The notes under the pieces: model-generated
What the model saw: only the letters and a program-made list of their open reading frames with translations
What the model was told of the DNA's origin: nothing
Database searches by the model: none
Shown here: in pieces, positions 35,696-45,082 of the stretch
How the letters are laid out: each line of letters starts with the position of its first letter
Numbering within the stretch: the stretch's first letter is position 1
Program-made: the position numbers and the translations under genes
NCBI GenBank assembly: GCA_944326795.1
Contig: CALVFJ010000005.1
Location: forward strand, 1 to 64,000
DNA: 64,000 nucleotides
DNA from: an uncultured Erysipelotrichaceae bacterium
GTDB lineage: Bacteria > Bacillota_I > Bacilli_A > Erysipelotrichales > Erysipelotrichaceae
Direction: 5' to 3'

Positions 35696-36799
35696 CTATT
35701 GAGTTATGATGGAATCTTTGATACCTTCAGTATACAATATTTGATAACCATTTATATTCATGCTATTGGCGCTATCAATGGCTTTTGCTTCGTCAACGAT
35801 CCAAATTGCATTAAAATTATCATCTGGATATAATTCTTGCACTCTAGCGAGTAATTCTAATCCTTCATCATAATCTAAAGTATATAATGAAGTGCTTAAG
35901 ATATCGGCGATAGCACTGTTTTTGCAAATTACAGTAACGCTGCGATATTTAGTTGCCGGATATAAGGTGCGAGGATCAATGATGTGATTATAGCTATTGC
36001 CATCTTCAGCAATATAATATCTTTGATAATCACCGCTTGTTACAAATGAGACGCTTCCTGGTTGCGATACCGCAATGAATCCACCTTCACCATCAGGATT
36101 TTGGATCAATGAACGCCAAGGGCTGCCATCTAGTTTAGTATTTACCGTACGGTTATTACCGCCAGCATTTACGATAGCCGCTTTGATGTCATCTTGTTCT
36201 AAGGTTTGGGCTAATTGCTCAGCGGCATAACCTTTAGCCACACCGCCTACATCTAAGCTGGCACATGCTTCGTTTAGATATACGGTGTTATTTTCATCAT
36301 CAATTTCGACTTTGTCCCATCCGGTACAAGCAAAAGCAGTTTGTAATTCTTCGTCAGTAGGGAGAGATCCTAATTCACCTTGAGCATTTGCTTCAATGCC
36401 ATCTTCGCGATATTGATGCCATATTTTTAAAACCGGACCCATTGTTATATCAAATTCATGATTAGTAATTTCATAGAATTCCCTAGTTAATAATAATAGA
36501 TCAATCAATGTTTGATCAACTTCTATCGGTTTAATTCCAGCGTTATCGTTGATCGTTTTAAGGTTATTTACCCCAGGATAGGTATTATAGATATCAAATA
36601 ACTGATTGTAATTGCTATATTGTTCTAATAGCTTGTTGTATTCTTCGCTAAAATCTTCTTTGCTCTCAGTTGCTAATTGAATTTGCAAAAAAGTATCAAA
36701 GCCTGCAGTAAGGCTGACTTCCTCGTACATCGTGTATTCTTTTGCAGAGCATGATGATAGAAGTAAGATACTTAATAGAAGTACTACAAATTTTTTCAT
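35696..36799 (-). CDS. apbE: FAD:protein FMN transferase ApbE (lipoprotein)
   Basis: Attaches FMN through a phosphoester to Thr in [DSTG]xxG[AS]T motifs of extracytoplasmic domains. The signal peptide ends in lipobox LSSC (Cys17), so the enzyme is outside the membrane, where its targets are. Family blocks: ITMGPVLKIW, SLDVGGVAKGYAAE (FAD and Mg binding), NAGGNNRTV, FVTSGDYQRYY and YNHIIDPRT. The 367-residue length is normal. It is transcribed divergently from the Rnf operon, whose RnfD and RnfG together carry six candidate acceptor threonines. Confidence 0.95.
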   Translation of the reverse strand: MKKFVVLLLSILLLSSCSAKEYTMYEEVSLTAGFDTFLQIQLATESKEDFSEEYNKLLEQYSNYNQLFDIYNTYPGVNNLKTINDNAGIKPIEVDQTLIDLLLLTREFYEITNHEFDITMGPVLKIWHQYREDGIEANAQGELGSLPTDEELQTAFACTGWDKVEIDDENNTVYLNEACASLDVGGVAKGYAAEQLAQTLEQDDIKAAIVNAGGNNRTVNTKLDGSPWRSLIQNPDGEGGFIAVSQPGSVSFVTSGDYQRYYIAEDGNSYNHIIDPRTLYPATKYRSVTVICKNSAIADILSTSLYTLDYDEGLELLARVQELYPDDNFNAIWIVDEAKAIDSANSMNINGYQILYTEGIKDSIITQ

Positions 36800-36875: not shown

Positions 36876-36904
36876 GTTATTTTATGGAAAGGAAAGATTA
36901 TTAT

Positions 36905-38197
36905 ATGTCATTTTTAACAGGACCAATGCGTAAGCATTTAGATGGTCATAAAGAACTTACAAATCATGAAGATGTTTTGAAAGTTGAAGCAGGCAATCTT
37001 GTTAAAATACCTTTATTGAATGGCAACGCACCATGTACGCCATGTGTTAAGGAAAATGATTTGGTTAAGGTTGGAACCTTGATTGGTGAAAGAAACGATC
37101 ATTTTTATGTTCCACTTTTTTCTAGCGTTTCTGGTAAGGTTGTCAAGATTGAAAAGCTTATGTCTTCTGCGTTAAAGCCAGTGGATCATGTAGTTATTGA
37201 AAATGATGGCAAATATGAGGTTGAAAGACCTTTTGAACCATTAAATTATGAGAGTGCAACTAGAGAGCAATTAGTTGAATTTATGAAAAATGCCGGCATC
37301 GTCGGGTGTGGTGGTGCAGGTTTTCCAACATATGTTAAATATTTAAAGCCAGAAAACATTGATGTATTGATCATTAATGCCGTAGAATGTGAGCCTTATA
37401 TCACAGCTGACTATAAATTGATGAGCGAAAATATCGATTTATTGGTTTTAGGTGTCAAAGCATTATATAAGATGTCTTGTGCCAAAGCATGTAAGGTTGC
37501 GATCAAAGTTACTAAGAAAGATTTCATTCCAGTATTGGAAAAAGCTTTTGCTAATGTTGATGGTGTCAGCGTGGTAGCTGTTCCTGATGTTTATCCAATG
37601 GGTTGGGAAAGAACGTTGGTATATGAAATTACTAAGAAACGTTATGATAAATTACCAGCTGAAGTGGGATGCATCGTCAGCAATGCAACAACAGCAATTT
37701 CTTTTGCGAATGCTTTAGCTAACGGTATGCCTATTGTTAATAAGCTTTTAACCGTTGCTGGTGATGGCGTTAAGAAAAATTGCAATGTTTCTGTAAGAGT
37801 AGGTACTAGTGCGAAAGAAATAGTTGATGCGCTAGGTGGATACACTTGTGAAGATGTCTTATTGATTGCTGGTGGACCAATGATGGGAAGGACCATCACT
37901 ACTGATGCTTTTGTCATTGGCACTTATAACAATGCGTTAACGATTTTAAAGAATAAAGATCTAGAACCTTTAAAATGTTTGCGTTGCGGAAAATGTTCAG
38001 ATCATTGTCCGGCAGGTTTACAACCAGTTAGGATCAATACCGCAAATAAAGCGCATGATCTAGATACCGTAGCGGCATTAGATGTCATGAGTTGTATCGA
38101 ATGTGGCATGTGTACTTATGTTTGTCCATCTAAAATTAACGTTACTGAAGGTATTAGACAAGCTAAGCGTTTCTTAGCGCTTAAGAAAAAGAAATAA
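36905..38197 (+). CDS. rnfC: Rnf complex subunit C (RnfC)
   Basis: Cytoplasmic-face subunit that exchanges electrons with NAD(H). The Gly-rich nucleotide/FMN motif GIVGCGGAGFPT is followed by INAVECEPYITADY. Two [4Fe-4S] motifs are CLRCGKCSDHCP (about residue 358) and CIECGMCTYVCP (about 397). At 430 residues it is a standard RnfC. The ATG at 36905 is chosen because GGAAAGGA (36885-36892) precedes it and because ATG 36884 would lie almost at the transcription start. It heads the operon rnfC-D-G-E-A-orf-B. Confidence 0.96.
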   Translation: MSFLTGPMRKHLDGHKELTNHEDVLKVEAGNLVKIPLLNGNAPCTPCVKENDLVKVGTLIGERNDHFYVPLFSSVSGKVVKIEKLMSSALKPVDHVVIENDGKYEVERPFEPLNYESATREQLVEFMKNAGIVGCGGAGFPTYVKYLKPENIDVLIINAVECEPYITADYKLMSENIDLLVLGVKALYKMSCAKACKVAIKVTKKDFIPVLEKAFANVDGVSVVAVPDVYPMGWERTLVYEITKKRYDKLPAEVGCIVSNATTAISFANALANGMPIVNKLLTVAGDGVKKNCNVSVRVGTSAKEIVDALGGYTCEDVLLIAGGPMMGRTITTDAFVIGTYNNALTILKNKDLEPLKCLRCGKCSDHCPAGLQPVRINTANKAHDLDTVAALDVMSCIECGMCTYVCPSKINVTEGIRQAKRFLALKKKK

Positions 38198-38212: not shown

Positions 38213-40246
38213 ATGAAATTTACTTTTAAACCTAGTCCTAATTATCGTGACTCGCAAAGTACCCAAGGTATCATGCGTGATCTAACAATAGGATTATTAG
38301 TTGTTTTCGCCTTTTCATTATTTTATTATGCAACAGGTGAAAATTTAGGCATGAGCTATGTTTTAAGAGCTTGTGGTCTACTGGTTACATCTGTAATCAG
38401 TGCTCTAGCAACAGAAGCAATATTTTTTGCTGTATCTAAACAACCAATCGTTAAATCGATCATGGGATCATTCGGTTGGGTTACTGCTATTATCTTGACA
38501 TTGATGTGTCCAATCAATATCAGTTATTATGCCTTGGCTATCAGCACGATCATGGCAATCGTATTTGGTAAGCTGGTTTTTGGTGGCTTTGGACAAAACA
38601 TCTTCAATCCAGCAGCTTTTGGTCGAGCTATCATCATGGCAAGCTTTGCTGGCAGTGTTGTAGCAGATTTTGCTACTAGTGCAACCCCAACTCAAAGTTT
38701 TGCTGCAAGTGGATGGTTGATGAGCAATGATACGTTCAATAGTTTTATCGCACAATTTGGTGGCTTGAGTGAAATGTTTATTGGAAGATATCCAGGAGCA
38801 ATCGGCGAAACTAGTGCATTGGTTATTTTACTGGTTGGAGCATTCTTGGTATATCGCAAAGTTATTGATTGGAAAGTCATTGTAGCATATTTAGGCACAA
38901 TATTATTATCAACGCTTGGAATTGCGCTAGTGAATGGTCAAGGAATGTGGTATCCATTATTCCATTTGTTGACTGGTGGTGTGATGTTTGGTGCTGTATT
39001 TATGTTAACTGATCCAGTAACAAATCCAACGAGCAGTGCAGGAAGAATAATCTTTGGTATTGGTGCAGCATTTTTTACCGTATTGATCCGTATCAAAGGT
39101 AATTTGCCTGAAGGTGTTTTATATTCGATCTTGTTGATGAATATGTTGACGCCATTGATCGAAAGATTAACTACAGGTAACCAAATTAAAATTGCCAAGA
39201 AAAATTCACGAAATGTTGTCGTCATTTTTGTTGCATGTTTGGCAATATTAGTAGGTGTTAGCACAACTTTAGAAGCTAAGGAAGTTACGATCAATACGCC
39301 TGTAGAAAAAATTGAAGGTATCACAGGAACTGCTAAAGGCTTTGGCGGTGATGTAACCGTAACAGTTGCTACGGATGCAGATGGCGTGATAACAAAGATC
39401 GTTGCTGAAGGAGCTAATGAGACACCAGGCTTAGGATTAGATGCAATCAATACATTTAATTCTGAAGGATTTGCAAAGTTTGAAGGTGTTGCCTTGGCAG
39501 AAGCTCATTTTGATAGCTTAGATATGGTAACAGGTTCAACCGTAACATCAAAAGCTGTCATTGAAGCTTTAAAACAGACTCAAGGTTCAAATGAAAGCAG
39601 TAATCCTACTGAAACAGCAACAGTGGAAAAAATTGAAGGTATCACAGGAACTGCTAAAGGCTTTGGCGGTGATGTAACCGTAACGGTCGCTACGGATGCA
39701 GATGGCGTGATAACAAAGATCGTTGCTGAAGGAGCTAATGAAACAGCAGGTCTAGGACTTGATGCAATTGATAAATTCAACAACGAAGGATTTACAAAGT
39801 TTGAAGGTGTTGCCTTGGCAGAAGCTGATTTTGATAGCTTAGATATGGTAACAGGTTCAACCGTAACCTCAAAAGCTGTCATTGAAGCTTTAAAACAAAC
39901 TCAAGGTTCAAATGAAAGTACCGATGCTAACGATACAACAGATGCTGCTGGTGAAAGCAATGATATCGAAGGAACAGCAAAAGGTTTTGGCGGAGATATC
40001 GTTGTGACCATTAGTTTAGATGCTGAAGGTAATATAAGCAAGATTACGGCTGTAGGTGAAAAAGAAACAGCGGGTCTAGGACTTGATGCAATTGAAAAGT
40101 TTAATAGCGAAGGATTTGCAAAATTCGAAGGTATTGCTTTAGCAGAAGCTGATTTTACAACTTTAGATATGGTTACAGGTTCAACCGTAACCTCAAAAGC
40201 CGTTATTGAAGCGGCTCAAGCTGCTCAAAGCGCAGCTAAGCAATAG
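38213..40246 (+). CDS. rnfD: Rnf complex subunit D fused to three FMN-binding domains (RnfD)
   Basis: Residues 1-330 are an ordinary RnfD: membrane helices, FNPAAFGRA, and a candidate covalent-FMN site at Thr158 in DFATSATP. An additional membrane segment (about 335-352) then leads to three FMN_bind-type domains at roughly 364-460, 471-566 and 584-672. Each contains GTAKGFGGD, GLGLDAI and the acceptor motif DMVTGST (Thr443, Thr550, Thr658). Normal RnfD proteins are about 310-350 residues; this one has 677. Linkers between domains are rich in Asn, Ser, Thr and Glu. The added helix should place the tail outside, where ApbE acts. Copies 1 and 2 are nearly identical in DNA, pointing to recent duplication. 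Confidence 0.93.
   Translation: MKFTFKPSPNYRDSQSTQGIMRDLTIGLLVVFAFSLFYYATGENLGMSYVLRACGLLVTSVISALATEAIFFAVSKQPIVKSIMGSFGWVTAIILTLMCPINISYYALAISTIMAIVFGKLVFGGFGQNIFNPAAFGRAIIMASFAGSVVADFATSATPTQSFAASGWLMSNDTFNSFIAQFGGLSEMFIGRYPGAIGETSALVILLVGAFLVYRKVIDWKVIVAYLGTILLSTLGIALVNGQGMWYPLFHLLTGGVMFGAVFMLTDPVTNPTSSAGRIIFGIGAAFFTVLIRIKGNLPEGVLYSILLMNMLTPLIERLTTGNQIKIAKKNSRNVVVIFVACLAILVGVSTTLEAKEVTINTPVEKIEGITGTAKGFGGDVTVTVATDADGVITKIVAEGANETPGLGLDAINTFNSEGFAKFEGVALAEAHFDSLDMVTGSTVTSKAVIEALKQTQGSNESSNPTETATVEKIEGITGTAKGFGGDVTVTVATDADGVITKIVAEGANETAGLGLDAIDKFNNEGFTKFEGVALAEADFDSLDMVTGSTVTSKAVIEALKQTQGSNESTDANDTTDAAGESNDIEGTAKGFGGDIVVTISLDAEGNISKITAVGEKETAGLGLDAIEKFNSEGFAKFEGIALAEADFTTLDMVTGSTVTSKAVIEAAQAAQSAAKQ
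39301..39590 (+). repeat. FMN-domain tandem repeat, copy 1
   Basis: First of three direct repeats inside rnfD. Its first half and last third are almost identical to copy 2 in DNA, differing mainly at third codon positions. Its centre (GGCTTAGGATTAGATGCAATC) differs from copies 2 and 3. Confidence 0.9.
39625..39909 (+). repeat. FMN-domain tandem repeat, copy 2
   Basis: Second direct repeat. The 5' part matches copy 1, while the central GGTCTAGGACTTGATGCAAT matches copy 3, so it is a mosaic of its two neighbours. Confidence 0.9.
39961..40230 (+). repeat. FMN-domain tandem repeat, copy 3
   Basis: Third, more diverged repeat. It shares the central GLGLDAI codons and the GGTTCAACCGTAACCTCAAA segment with copy 2. 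Confidence 0.85.
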
Positions 40247-40260
40247 GGGAGGACGCAATT

Positions 40261-41187
40261 ATGAAAAAAATCGCATATTTGACATGTTTCTTGGCTATTG
40301 TTTGTGCCGTAGCTGGTGGTGCTTTAACATTAGTAAACGACATGACAGCACCAATCATTGATTCAATGGCAATCGAAGCTGAAAAAGCAAATTTAGAATT
40401 AATTTATCCTGGAGCTGAATTTAGTGAAATTGAAAATACAGATGATTCAGGTTTGATCTTAGGTATATATGAAGCTAAAGATAAAGGTTATGTATATAAA
40501 TTGCAGAATACAGGTTATTCTAGCACTCCTTATCAATTCTTGATTGCATTTAATCTTGATGGAACAGTTGGCGGTTATAAGATGTTGCAGTCAAGCGAAA
40601 CCAATGGATTTGGTGCAAGAGCTTGGGAAGATGAATATACAAATACTATTTTAGGTTTAACTTCAAGTGATGCGTTTCCTTTATTATCTGGAGCAACGGT
40701 AACGACAACCGGAGTAGTAGAAGCTATCGATGCAGCAAAAGCACATTTTAATGCTTTACAAGGAATTGAATATGATGAAAACGCTGTTGCAGAAGCTCCT
40801 GCTTTGGCAACAGGGAATCCTGTGGCATTAAATAGTGATCTAAGTGCATATAATGCAATTATTGATAATGAAACTCAAGATGGTGATAATACTAAATATA
40901 CGATAACTGTATATGGTTTTGGATTAGTAAATGGCCAATCATCAGAATATCAGGAGAATGTATTTGAAGTAGTTATTGATGCTAATGCAACTGTAGATTC
41001 TATTATAATGACTCAATTTGGGGACACTGCTGGTATTGGTGATAAAATCGATACAGCAGAATATTATGATTTATTTAAAGGCGCAACGATTGACAGCAGC
41101 ATCGATACGGTTACCGGTGCTACATTTACTAGTACATCAGCAATTGCTGCGGCACAAGCTGCCCTAAATGCGGCAGCAGGACAATAG
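40261..41187 (+). CDS. rnfG: Rnf complex subunit G with two FMN-binding domains (RnfG)
   Basis: RnfG is the extracytoplasmic flavin subunit anchored by one N-terminal helix (residues 4-26). The first domain is the canonical one and carries the acceptor motif LLSGATVT (Thr146). A linker at about 168-190 leads to a second, shorter domain that ends in DTVTGATFTS (Thr288). Standard RnfG has about 190-210 residues and one site; this has 308 and two. The duplication parallels the tandem domains of RnfD encoded just upstream. AGGGGAGGA precedes the ATG. Confidence 0.93.
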   Translation: MKKIAYLTCFLAIVCAVAGGALTLVNDMTAPIIDSMAIEAEKANLELIYPGAEFSEIENTDDSGLILGIYEAKDKGYVYKLQNTGYSSTPYQFLIAFNLDGTVGGYKMLQSSETNGFGARAWEDEYTNTILGLTSSDAFPLLSGATVTTTGVVEAIDAAKAHFNALQGIEYDENAVAEAPALATGNPVALNSDLSAYNAIIDNETQDGDNTKYTITVYGFGLVNGQSSEYQENVFEVVIDANATVDSIIMTQFGDTAGIGDKIDTAEYYDLFKGATIDSSIDTVTGATFTSTSAIAAAQAALNAAAGQ

Positions 41188-41200
41188 GAGGGCAATGACA

Positions 41201-41845
41201 ATGAGTAAGAATAAGTCTAGTTTTTCTAAAGGCCTGATTACGGAAAATCCAGTTTTTGGTTTATATTTAGGTATATGTTCTACATTAGCTATTTCTACTA
41301 GCCTAAATAATGCTTTAGGAATGGGTGTAGCTGTAATATTTGTCTTAACTTTTTCAAATATTATCATTTCTATGATGCGTAATATCATTCCTAATGAAAT
41401 TAGAATTCCGGTTTATATCGTAATCATCGCTACTTTGGTAACGATCGTTGAAATGCTGATCCATGCTTATGCACCAAGCTTATATACAGCTTTAGGAGCG
41501 TTTATTAGCTTGATCGTTGTAAACTGCATAATTTTAGGACGCGCAGAAGCTTTTGCTAGCAAAAATGGAGTATTAGCAAGTGCTATGGATGGAATAAGCA
41601 TGGGTATTGGTTATACATTAAGTTTGGTTGTTATTTCTTTGATAAGACAAATCTTAGGAACAGGAATTTTAAGTTTAGCAAATCCTTTTACGGATGCAAC
41701 TATCTTTAGTTTTACGATCATTCCTGAAACCTATATCATTTCCATGTTTAAAGATCCTACAGGAGCATTCTTGACCTTTGCATGCTGCGCAGCAGCATTG
41801 ACAGCATATGTCAATAGTAAGAAAAAGAAGGAGGCTAGCAAATAA
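41201..41845 (+). CDS. rnfE: Rnf complex subunit E (RnfE)
   Basis: Membrane subunit homologous to RnfA and NqrD. It has six helices in inverted halves. Cys26 (GICSTLAIS) and Cys109 (VVNCIILGRAEAFA) are the conserved ligands of the intramembrane iron-sulfur centre shared with RnfA. The ATG at 41201 lies 9 bp after AGGAGG (41186-41191). Other in-frame starts (41168, 41195) are inside rnfG or too close to that site. The protein is 214 residues. The stop overlaps the rnfA ATG by one base. Confidence 0.95.
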   Translation: MSKNKSSFSKGLITENPVFGLYLGICSTLAISTSLNNALGMGVAVIFVLTFSNIIISMMRNIIPNEIRIPVYIVIIATLVTIVEMLIHAYAPSLYTALGAFISLIVVNCIILGRAEAFASKNGVLASAMDGISMGIGYTLSLVVISLIRQILGTGILSLANPFTDATIFSFTIIPETYIISMFKDPTGAFLTFACCAAALTAYVNSKKKKEASK

Positions 41846-42417
41846 TGGAATTAGTTTCAATGTTCATTGCTGCAGTTCTTATCAATAATATTGTATTAAC
41901 AAAATTCTTAGGTATGTGTCCATTTTTGGGTGTATCTAAGAAAATGAGTTCAGCTGTTGGTATGGGTGTAGCAGTTATCTTTGTTATTTTTGGTGCATCG
42001 CTAATTTCTTATGCCTTATATTATTTAGTGTTAGTGCCATTAGGCTTAGAATATATGCAGTTAATCACCTTTATTTTGGTAATTGCATCTTTTGTTCAAT
42101 TTGTTGAAATGGTAATAAAAAAATATTCACCTGCTCTTTATAAAGCATTAGGCGTTTATTTGCCATTGATTACTACTAACTGTACGGTTTTATATGTTGC
42201 ACAACAAAATATTTCTTCATCATATACATTGGTAGAAACCATTATTAATTCTATTGCCGTACCTACAGGATTTTTGATGGTACTAGTCATTTTTGCTGCT
42301 ATTAGAGAAAGATTAGAAGCTGCAGACATTCCTGAATGTTTCAAAGGAAATCCAATTGCTTTGATCTGTGCTGCAACTATGGCTTTAGCATTTACCGCTT
42401 TTGCTGGATTGGTATAA
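41845..42417 (+). CDS. rnfA: Rnf complex subunit A (RnfA)
   Basis: Pseudo-symmetric partner of RnfE, 190 residues and six helices. Cys25 (GMCPFLGVSK) and Cys113 (TTNCTVLYVA) complete the intramembrane cluster site. RERLEAADIPECFKGNPIALI near the C-terminus is typical of RnfA. It overlaps rnfE by 1 bp and is followed after 1 bp by the small cysteine-rich gene. Confidence 0.96.
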   Translation: MELVSMFIAAVLINNIVLTKFLGMCPFLGVSKKMSSAVGMGVAVIFVIFGASLISYALYYLVLVPLGLEYMQLITFILVIASFVQFVEMVIKKYSPALYKALGVYLPLITTNCTVLYVAQQNISSSYTLVETIINSIAVPTGFLMVLVIFAAIRERLEAADIPECFKGNPIALICAATMALAFTAFAGLV

Positions 42418-42418
42418 G

Positions 42419-42607
42419 ATGCAAGTAATATACGCAATTCTTTTTGGCGTTTGTTTAGGTGGTATTTATGCAGCTTTATATTATTTGAATCATAAAACCC
42501 CGTTGCCAAAGGGATGTGAAAATTTAAAAGCTGAATGTGATGGATGTAAGATTACATCATGTGATATGCATCCTTCACATAATATAAAGGAGACAAAAAA
42601 TGATTAA
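42419..42607 (+). CDS. Small single-span four-Cys protein, possible Rnf maturation factor
   Basis: A 62-residue protein with one membrane helix (residues 3-23) followed by Cys33-x6-Cys40-x2-Cys43-x4-Cys48 and a His-containing tail (DMHPSH). It starts 1 bp after the rnfA stop and overlaps rnfB by 8 bp, so it is translationally embedded between them. I do not recognise a named family with certainty. The layout (short N-terminal helix, then four Cys) resembles NqrM/DUF539, needed for assembling the metal centre of NqrD-NqrE, the homologues of RnfE-RnfA. That parallel is inference. Confidence 0.8.
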   Translation: MQVIYAILFGVCLGGIYAALYYLNHKTPLPKGCENLKAECDGCKITSCDMHPSHNIKETKND

Positions 42608-42869
42608 CGCAATACTGATGATGTTGGTTGTTGGGGCATTAATGGGCCTAATTCTTGGATTCAGTGATAAAGTTTTCTATGTAGCTCCAGATACAAGGGT
42701 TGAGGATGTTACCAAAATGCTGCCAGGTTACAATTGTGGTGGCTGTGGATATCCTGGATGCTCAGGACTTGCTGAAGCACTAGTAAATAAAGAGGCTGAA
42801 GTCACTAATTGTAAGCCTTCTAGTCCTCAACAAAAAGAAGCAATTAAAGAATATCTATCAACACACTAA
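42600..42869 (+). CDS. rnfB: Minimal RnfB: membrane anchor plus one [4Fe-4S] domain
   Basis: Residues 2-27 form the membrane anchor. The [4Fe-4S] domain holds Cys46, Cys49, Cys54 and Cys71 in the family context LPGYNCGGCGYPGCSGLAEA. The protein then stops at residue 89. Ordinary RnfB continues with a domain carrying two ferredoxin-type [4Fe-4S] clusters. No such motif follows in any frame before the terminator 2 bp downstream, so this is a true short form and not an obvious frameshift. It is the last gene of the operon. Confidence 0.9.
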   Translation: MINAILMMLVVGALMGLILGFSDKVFYVAPDTRVEDVTKMLPGYNCGGCGYPGCSGLAEALVNKEAEVTNCKPSSPQQKEAIKEYLSTH

Positions 42870-42897: not shown

Positions 42898-42938
42898 GCT
42901 ATTGATAAAAAGTTGATTAATTATAATGGGTGATGATA

Positions 42939-43661
42939 GTGAAAATAAAGATTATAAAATGGTTAATAATATTTTTGATTGCTTCTATATTAGCATTAGC
43001 AGATATTATATTAGTTAATATCATAAGTTATCGAAAACTTGATATGGTTGAAACGTATGTAGCTTCACATGATATATTGCCTCGATCATGTATTACGGAA
43101 GAAGATCTGCAAATAATCAAAGTACCTAATATATATTTAAAAGATAATGCCTTTGATAAAAAAGAAGAAATTATTGGAAAATATACGGATATCCAAGGAA
43201 TGATACCTAAAGGATCGCTTTTTTATAAATCAATGCTAAAGAAACAAGAAGAATTATCAGATTATCCAAGTACCAAATTATTAGAAGGGCAAATGGCTTA
43301 TTCATTGACTGCTAGCATTATTGAACTTGCAGGAAATACGATCGTTGAAGACCAAAGAGTTGATGTTTATGTTGCATTAAACGGAAATAATAATATTCCA
43401 ATAGTAGACAAATTAATTTCTAACGCTCGCGTATTAAGCATTCACGATAGTAAAGGATATAATATCACACATCCTAAATCTTCAAAGATTCCTAATGTTA
43501 TATTATTGGCAATAGATGAAAAGAGTGTTGAATTTCTAGCTAAAGCTGAAAAAATAGGAACAGTTAAATTATTGGCATCTAGCGAAAGTTATAGTCAGCA
43601 TGAAGCAATGCTCAATGAAAATTCATCTGTATTGCCTTTTCTAACTGGATCAATGAATTAA
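42939..43661 (+). CDS. Membrane-anchored SAF-domain protein (CpaB/RcpC-like)
   Basis: An N-terminal helix (about residues 6-27) is followed by a SAF domain: VASHDILPRSCITEEDLQIIKVP and MIPKGSLFYKSML. A second region with LLEGQMAYSLTAS and LLAIDEKSVEFLAKAEKIG is arranged as in CpaB/RcpC pilus-assembly proteins. No Flp/Tad pilus genes are present here, so its partner is unknown. The start is uncertain: GTG 42939 is favoured by GGGTGA at 42928-42933, with in-frame alternatives at 42930 and 42933. TATAAT at 42922-42927 is a possible -10. Confidence 0.7.
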   Translation: MKIKIIKWLIIFLIASILALADIILVNIISYRKLDMVETYVASHDILPRSCITEEDLQIIKVPNIYLKDNAFDKKEEIIGKYTDIQGMIPKGSLFYKSMLKKQEELSDYPSTKLLEGQMAYSLTASIIELAGNTIVEDQRVDVYVALNGNNNIPIVDKLISNARVLSIHDSKGYNITHPKSSKIPNVILLAIDEKSVEFLAKAEKIGTVKLLASSESYSQHEAMLNENSSVLPFLTGSMN

Positions 43662-44473: not shown

Positions 44474-45082
44474 TTAGTTAATTTTTTGCTTATTTAAAGC
44501 ATCACTTTTCAGCTCGCTTGAAGATCTTGCATAATCTATAGTCATATTTGTGTTGTTATGACCCATAAGTTCCATGACCGTTCTTATATCAACGTTATTG
44601 GTGATTAGATCAGTAGAGAACTGATGTCGGAGCTGATACATATTAAATTTGATACCATGCTGCTTGCATATATATCTAATTTTATTACCAACTTGACTAG
44701 AATTAAAATAATTGCCATTGTGATCAGCAAAAAGAATTTCATTTGGCTGCGCTTCTATTAGATCGTTAATTATATCATACAGTGCATTGGAAATAGGGAT
44801 GATCCTATTAGATTGTTCAGTTTTACATTGTCGTATAACATTATTTTCTCTTAGATTACTACCAATTTCTTTATTAATGCTAATTTCACGCTTAATTAAA
44901 TCTATATCGCTTTTATTTAGTTCGTAGCATTCACAAGGGCGCATTCCAGTAAAATATAACATTAACAATGTCTTAGCAACGATCATATTATCGAATTTGT
45001 TTGGTTTGCTGCTCGTTAATAGATGATTGATGATAATATCGAGTGTTTGATTGGAAGTAGTAAAACTACACTTAGAATACAT
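44474..45082 (-). pseudogene. Truncated tyrosine recombinase (integrase catalytic domain)
   Basis: A 202-residue protein consisting almost only of the catalytic domain. Arg48 (FTGMRPCECYEL), Lys87, Arg152 in YQLRHQF, His175 (LMGH) and the nucleophile Tyr184 (TIDYAR) are present. The His that normally opens box II (HxxR) is Tyr149 here. The SAM-like N-terminal core-binding domain is missing: a stop in the same frame lies just 5' of the ATG. The frame begins 2 bp from the right direct repeat. It is the sole gene left of an element integrated in tRNA-His and is probably not functional by itself. Confidence 0.8.

Follow-up and report, generated by a model that had tools for sequence, protein, structure and literature searches.

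RnfD with a predicted extracytosolic tail of tandem FMN-binding domains, variable in number, in Erysipelotrichaceae and related Bacilli

Rnf is one of the main electron-transfer complexes with which many anaerobes pump ions, and it is commonly viewed as a connection between ferredoxin and NAD. In the stretch of 64,000 nucleotides analysed here (the window), the membrane subunit RnfD continues into three FMN-binding domains, and this raises the question of what such a tail is, on which side of the membrane it lies, how its copies came to be so alike, and what it would do for the complex.

Regarding the identity of the protein, PF03116 matched its residues 5-324 with 268.3 bits, against a gathering cut-off of 27.7, and the alignment covered profile positions 2-294 of 296; TIGR01946, the NCBIfam model of the RnfD subfamily, gave 201.6 bits and narrowly missed its cut-off of 207.05. 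The operon context rnfC-D-G-E-A supports the assignment as RnfD, with the C, D, G, E and A subunits encoded together (Table 1). The core contains a conserved GAIGETSA segment; it aligned in sequence to 7zc6_D and 9eri_D, and Foldseek matched it to 9eri_D, 8ahx_D and 7zc6_D.

Table 1. Features of the rnf locus, with positions in the window
Feature	Position	Strand	Evidence or remark
apbE, FAD:protein FMN transferase, lipoprotein-like N-terminus	35696..36799	-	PF02424 E 4e-66
rnfC, NAD-side subunit, two 4Fe-4S motifs	36884..38197	+	TIGR01945 356.6 bits, above cut-off
rnfD ORF	38213-40246	+	677 aa
Core of rnfD: NqrB/RnfD domain with ten helices, residues 1-321	38213..39175	+	PF03116 E 1e-79
Additional transmembrane helix (11th; residues 328-350), N-in and C-out by prediction	39194..39262	+	AlphaFold2, hydropathy, K/R
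FMN_bind repeat copy 1, acceptor Thr443 (putative)	39302..39601	+	
FMN_bind repeat copy 2, acceptor Thr550 (putative)	39623..39922	+	
Mosaic tract in copy 2, equal to copy 3 and not to copy 1	39742..39784	+	11/13 sites
FMN_bind repeat copy 3, acceptor Thr658 (putative), and rnfD end	39947..40246	+	
rnfG, two FMN_bind domains (PLLSGAT, DTVTGAT)	40261..41187	+	PF04205, two stretches
rnfE	41168..41845	+	TIGR01948 227.1 bits, above cut-off
rnfA	41845..42417	+	TIGR01943 241.1 bits, above cut-off
62-aa ORF with a single predicted helix and four conserved cysteines	42419..42607	+	conserved in 91 operons
Short rnfB, 89 aa, helix and FdI only	42600..42869	+	TIGR01944 positions 4-88/190; PF04060

C-terminal to this domain, PF04205 (FMN_bind) matched three stretches with 121.5 bits in total, and each repeat passed the cut-off singly (46.9, 43.9 and 46.8 bits), in agreement with the three tandem FMN-binding domains proposed by the first-pass annotation. 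The latter had also assigned the ApbE acceptor motif to DMVTGST at Thr443, Thr550 and Thr658: the motif does occur three times at these residues, but it has the form D-x-x-T-G-S-T and not the canonical D-x-x-[S/T]-G-A-[S/T]; among the relatives compared, this form was found in RnfD tails of the window genus only. Ser in the place of the canonical Ala counts against the reading favoured below; in another flavinylation target, an A-to-V change halved flavinylation (PMC12052999). In the AlphaFold2 model of the protein (mean pLDDT 79.8), the RnfD fold is followed by a helix at residues 328-350 and by three loosely linked folds of FMN_bind type; all three copies retain both the acceptor motif and the modelled fold. 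From the sequence, we infer that these Thr residues bind FMN covalently, and that it is probably loaded by the product of apbE, which is divergent from the rnf operon and adjoins rnfC in most of 100 relatives. With three domains whose extracytosolic location is predicted, RnfD would fall among the multi-flavinylated proteins, defined by more than one extracytosolic FMN-binding domain.

As for the location of the tail, the C-terminus of the C. tetanomorphum RnfD is cytoplasmic, with ten residues extending there (PMC9588780), and alignment to the closest solved RnfD chains ends at residues 321-323. The eleventh helix that follows in the window protein reaches a hydropathy of 2.73 at residue 335, and it is kept in nearly all family members, tailless ones included; an excess of Lys and Arg on its N side occurs in 77 of 95 relatives. 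Since a normal RnfD ends in the cytoplasm, the hydrophobic eleventh helix and its K/R bias lead to the prediction that the tail lies outside the cell; a cytosolic tail would have counted against the first reading. ApbE works outside the cell.

The repeats are spaced by 321 and 324 nt, so that the units are in frame, and TRF recovered the identical array with a score of 1154. Copies 1 and 2 share 276 of 300 nucleotides (92%), copies 1 and 3 share 202, and copies 2 and 3 share 211, and the near-identity noted earlier for the first two is therefore real; copy 3 is a repeat over most of its length, except for the final ~20 nt, which are the gene's own end and have no repeat homology. The centre of copy 2 had been said to side with copy 3 and not with copy 1, and it does so: GGTCTAGGACTTGATGCAAT is found in copies 2 and 3, while the corresponding sequence of copy 1 is GGCTTAGGATTAGATGCAAT, and of the 13 sites at which copy 2 agrees with copy 3 against copy 1, 11 are at repeat positions 120-162 (best-segment test with permutation of the site labels, p about 3e-5). 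In the repeat core, 14 of the 20 differences counted between copies 1 and 2 lie inside one 45-nt stretch (p about 5e-5), and the divergence among the copies is non-uniform.

This mosaic had been ascribed to a recent duplication combined with gene conversion or unequal crossing over. That a recent duplication alone produced copies 1 and 2 was rejected, as two further species of the genus have three copies with the same arrangement: copies 1 and 2 have 86-97% identity in the flanks and copies 2 and 3 have 93% in the centre, in synonymous codons that are specific to each species. In the window species itself, the centre of copy 2 is 89% identical to that of copy 3, against 78-80% when copy 2 is compared with its counterparts in those two species. 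The flank/centre pattern thus recurs with species-specific codons, which is best explained by an array of three copies that is older and has been homogenised repeatedly; a separate duplication in every lineage is a less probable source.

The number of domains had been suggested to vary between strains, and between species it does: within the genus, RnfD matches were obtained in five species, with 3, 3, 3, 2 and 1 FMN_bind domains, and 0 to 3 are found in the family, a variation that is between species and comes mostly from MAGs. The survey covered 100 operons from the window's GTDB family (the named close relatives of the window genome are uncultured Firmicutes and Erysipelotrichaceae), and the domain counts cover the 94 with a readable rnfG. 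In these, RnfD has no domain in 28 operons, one in 45, two in 16 and three in 5, RnfG carries 1 to 5, and RnfE has one in 3 operons; the counts derive from an HMM built on the present sequences and may miss highly divergent FMN_bind domains. On the tree of the RnfD cores, copy number changed at least 18 times, and in the genus g37 every one of the nine sampled species has two RnfD domains. An 874-aa frame of one relative was rejected as a long tail, being mostly masked N. Four genomes encode a second class of RnfD, more canonical-scoring and 515-543 aa long, which has its own C-terminal FMN_bind domain and stands apart from the RnfD family of the window.

On the tree of RnfD cores, the one-domain species of the genus groups as sister to the window species, and its RnfD is short by 215 aa (645 bp), exactly two units. 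The first half of its single domain corresponds to copy 1 and the second half to copy 3 (99% in the C-part), and the remaining operon has 81-98% aligned identity to that of the window. The join of copies 1 and 3 and the exact loss of two units are the product expected of recombination between these copies, which bears out the unequal crossing over suggested earlier, with the caveat that this relative is an IDBA-assembled bin. A strain-mixed contig is a less probable cause of the single domain, as there is no lasting identity step along the locus: identity to the window is high (98%) at the 3' end of the domain and returns to background downstream of the deletion.

Near-identical modules were also found in different subunit genes of one operon. 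In G002, which belongs to the genus of the window, the adjacent rnfG ends in 393 bp, stop codon included, that have 94.9% identity to the second RnfD domain, and in G052 the rnfD module and the adjacent rnfG share 419 bp at 96.4% identity. In G236, whose assembly has nine contigs with the rnf operon on one of 1.1 Mb, rnfD and the tail of rnfE share 402 bp at 97.5% identity, and the RnfD domains, two in number, have 97% identity to each other. Lower values were obtained for rnfD and rnfE in G237 (79.6%) and for rnfD and rnfG in about ten further genomes (66-76%); for 37 of the 170 domains with a paralogue match, the nearest relative lay inside their own operon and not in another genome. RnfE with a C-terminal FMN_bind domain was seen at five loci (L051, L053 and L054, from G145, G236 and G237, and L153 and L159), Dielma fastidiosa included; the type strain of this species has two FMN_bind domains on RnfD and one on RnfE. 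The RnfD of Holdemanella biformis, another cultured relative, is tailless.

As for the nature of the tail, the RnfG chain 9eri_G matches RnfD residues 344-453, and a helix followed by FMN_bind is the layout of RnfG, which makes the tail RnfG-like. In the stretches read, rnfG was not found in eleven Bacilli genomes and likewise in one Clostridiales MAG; RnfD bears one or two FMN domains in these 12 genomes, and in 10 of them all FMN_bind matches of the genome fall inside the RnfD frame. Since some Bacilli have no rnfG and RnfD is their only clear FMN_bind protein, the tail is best seen, from sequence comparison, as an RnfG-like module, which in Erysipelotrichaceae would be doubled by the separate RnfG. 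Proteiniclasticum ruminis and Youngiibacter fragilis, two clostridial isolates whose RnfG has two domains and whose genomes contain a full-size RnfB frame, have an RnfD with one FMN_bind domain that is 56-59% identical to that of the window and was possibly transferred horizontally.

The window genome encodes five FMN_bind/FAD_binding_2 proteins, most with lipoprotein-like N-termini, which are candidate electron acceptors, and, among those read, one more FMN_bind protein without FAD_binding_2. The FMN number of Rnf correlates with the number of other FMN_bind proteins at the level of genus means (rho 0.75), but independent pairs on the tree did not support the link, which was thus rejected as firm evidence and is weak evidence only. 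In some g37 species with two RnfD domains, no other FMN_bind protein was detected, so that not every tailed complex has an external flavin reductase as acceptor.

Among the other operon proteins, RnfG departs from the ApbE motif in its first FMN_bind domain (PLLSGAT), which has no Asp at the usual place, and about 20 relatives have Pro there. The 62-aa ORF between rnfA and rnfB has the pattern TPxPxGCExLxxxCxxC...C, with no Pfam match, no meaningful NCBIfam match and no known family; it is reminiscent of NqrM, but it was rejected as a homologue, having no match to NqrM. Just 3' of the operon lie an RcpC/CpaB-like Flp pilus protein (42930-43661) and a minus-strand ORF (44474-45082) that is tyrosine recombinase-like by eye.

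RnfB is short, apparently throughout the family: it has 83-149 aa (median 102 aa) in the 91 operons where it was found, and the ferredoxin-type motif CxxCxxCxxxC occurs in none of these 91 homologues; Dielma, two Holdemanella, CHKCI006 and Stoquefichus yielded only an RnfB of this short kind, cultured isolates included. FdII+III, thought to be the docking place of soluble ferredoxin in C. tetanomorphum RnfB (PMC9588780), are apparently absent from RnfB family-wide. A cluster devoid of RnfB was considered and rejected, given the short RnfB; the complex is called RNF-like because this protein has no C-terminal ferredoxin-docking module with two or more 4Fe-4S clusters.

The reading that we favour, and consider fairly probable, is that RnfD bears an extracytosolic, RnfG-like array, loaded with FMN and maintained by recombination, that feeds in part external acceptors. 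The array would be fused to RnfD via the added eleventh helix, and the adjacent ApbE would load one FMN on each of the three Thr residues outside the cell; the domains would then act like RnfG, being reduced on the outer side of the core complex by either the RnfAE cluster or the FMN of RnfD itself. Together with the two domains of RnfG, the tail would probably pass part of these electrons to extracytosolic acceptors, for instance the FMN_bind/FAD_binding_2 reductases of the same genome. Homologous recombination between the rnfD repeats would keep the array alike and change its number, and in other lineages it would take place among rnfD, rnfG and rnfE. The variable flavin tail suggests a tunable electron outlet to the cell exterior.

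Alternatively, the tail may only duplicate the RnfG shuttle of the normal Rnf cycle, from RnfAE to RnfD, with no external outlet, and the extra copies would serve as spares or increase the concentration of FMN locally. This would suit the rnfG-less Bacilli, where the tail must substitute for RnfG, and the two-domain species in which other FMN_bind proteins were not detected; nevertheless, most species retain a separate RnfG, some add a module on RnfE, and the flavin number tends to be higher where other FMN_bind proteins are many, though not independently of phylogeny, and we regard a pure shuttle as unlikely. Turning from the function of the tail to its number, the many changes on the tree, with one from three domains to one between sister species, are what a neutral turnover of repeats by recombination would produce, with no functional meaning of the number. 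The constancy of two RnfD domains in g37 and the conservation of motif and fold in all three copies speak against it, even if they are compatible with a neutral number, and such neutrality appears rather unlikely.

Metagenome assembly could also have generated the repeats, their number or the copies across genes, and the material invites the suspicion: the window genome (1.44 Mb, about 81% completeness) is in 37 contigs, its genus relatives are in 37-250, and the one-domain relative is the bin mentioned above. An artefact is however most improbable in view of the Dielma fastidiosa type strain with its modules on both RnfD and RnfE, of the long contig of G236 with 97% identical modules in rnfD and rnfE, of the centre pattern found in three species with different codons, and of the return of the sister's identity to background past the deletion.

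Beyond the favoured reading of an array that feeds external acceptors, a wider one is offered tentatively: in Erysipelotrichaceae and related Bacilli, Rnf may have been rebuilt, losing the ferredoxin-docking module of RnfB and gaining extracytosolic flavin arrays on RnfD, RnfG and sometimes RnfE, to serve for the most part as a respiratory outlet from NADH or ferredoxin to extracytosolic flavin reductases, with the arrays drawn from a shared pool of recombining cassettes copied between subunit genes. In either case, a family of mostly gut bacteria, some of them cultured, has an Rnf without the ferredoxin-docking module of RnfB and with a variable number of flavin domains that are predicted to face outward. 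If the tail carries electrons outward, it would help to explain how these anaerobes respire to external acceptors, and species could be compared for both their flavin number and their respiratory capacity. The near-identical modules in adjacent subunit genes are a clear case of a redox cofactor domain as an exchangeable cassette within one protein complex.

With regard to known systems, the RnfD structures of C. tetanomorphum (7zc6), A. woodii (9eri) and A. vinelandii (8ahx) have in common with the window protein the ten-helix NqrB/RnfD core, for which they are the best matches in both fold and sequence, and the GET segment shared with them is likely the site of the core FMN; in contrast, the solved proteins have a cytoplasmic end after helix ten, where the window RnfD adds the eleventh helix and the three FMN_bind domains. 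Multi-flavinylated RnfG, for which a second electron path to outside acceptors was proposed (Meheust et al. 2021, PMC8238504), likewise has several FMN_bind domains on an RNF subunit; in the passages of that survey seen here, which called RNF by the presence of RnfB, the multi-flavin case is RnfG and not RnfD or RnfE, and module exchange between subunits is not reported. No published description of RnfD tails, RnfD-RnfG fusions or the short RnfB was found in a search whose coverage left many subscription journals outside, and the RnfD tail is apparently undescribed in that literature, where multi-flavin RNF is known for RnfG.

Two further systems are close to the tail in architecture. The two-subunit NQR/RNF-like systems (PMC8238504, PMC11334425) also have an NqrB/RnfD membrane domain with a C-terminal fusion, which there is a cytosolic NAD-binding domain on a membrane domain without a covalent flavin site, whereas the window RnfD has a predicted extracytosolic FMN_bind fusion and the whole Rnf operon around it. 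Finally, the purified multi-FMN proteins SaFMN3 and CbFMN4 (PMC10339131; PDB 8p2b) have three or four near-alike FMN_bind domains on flexible linkers, like the tail, and domain 1 of CbFMN4 matches it; these proteins are secreted and soluble, while the array of the window is fused to a membrane redox pump.
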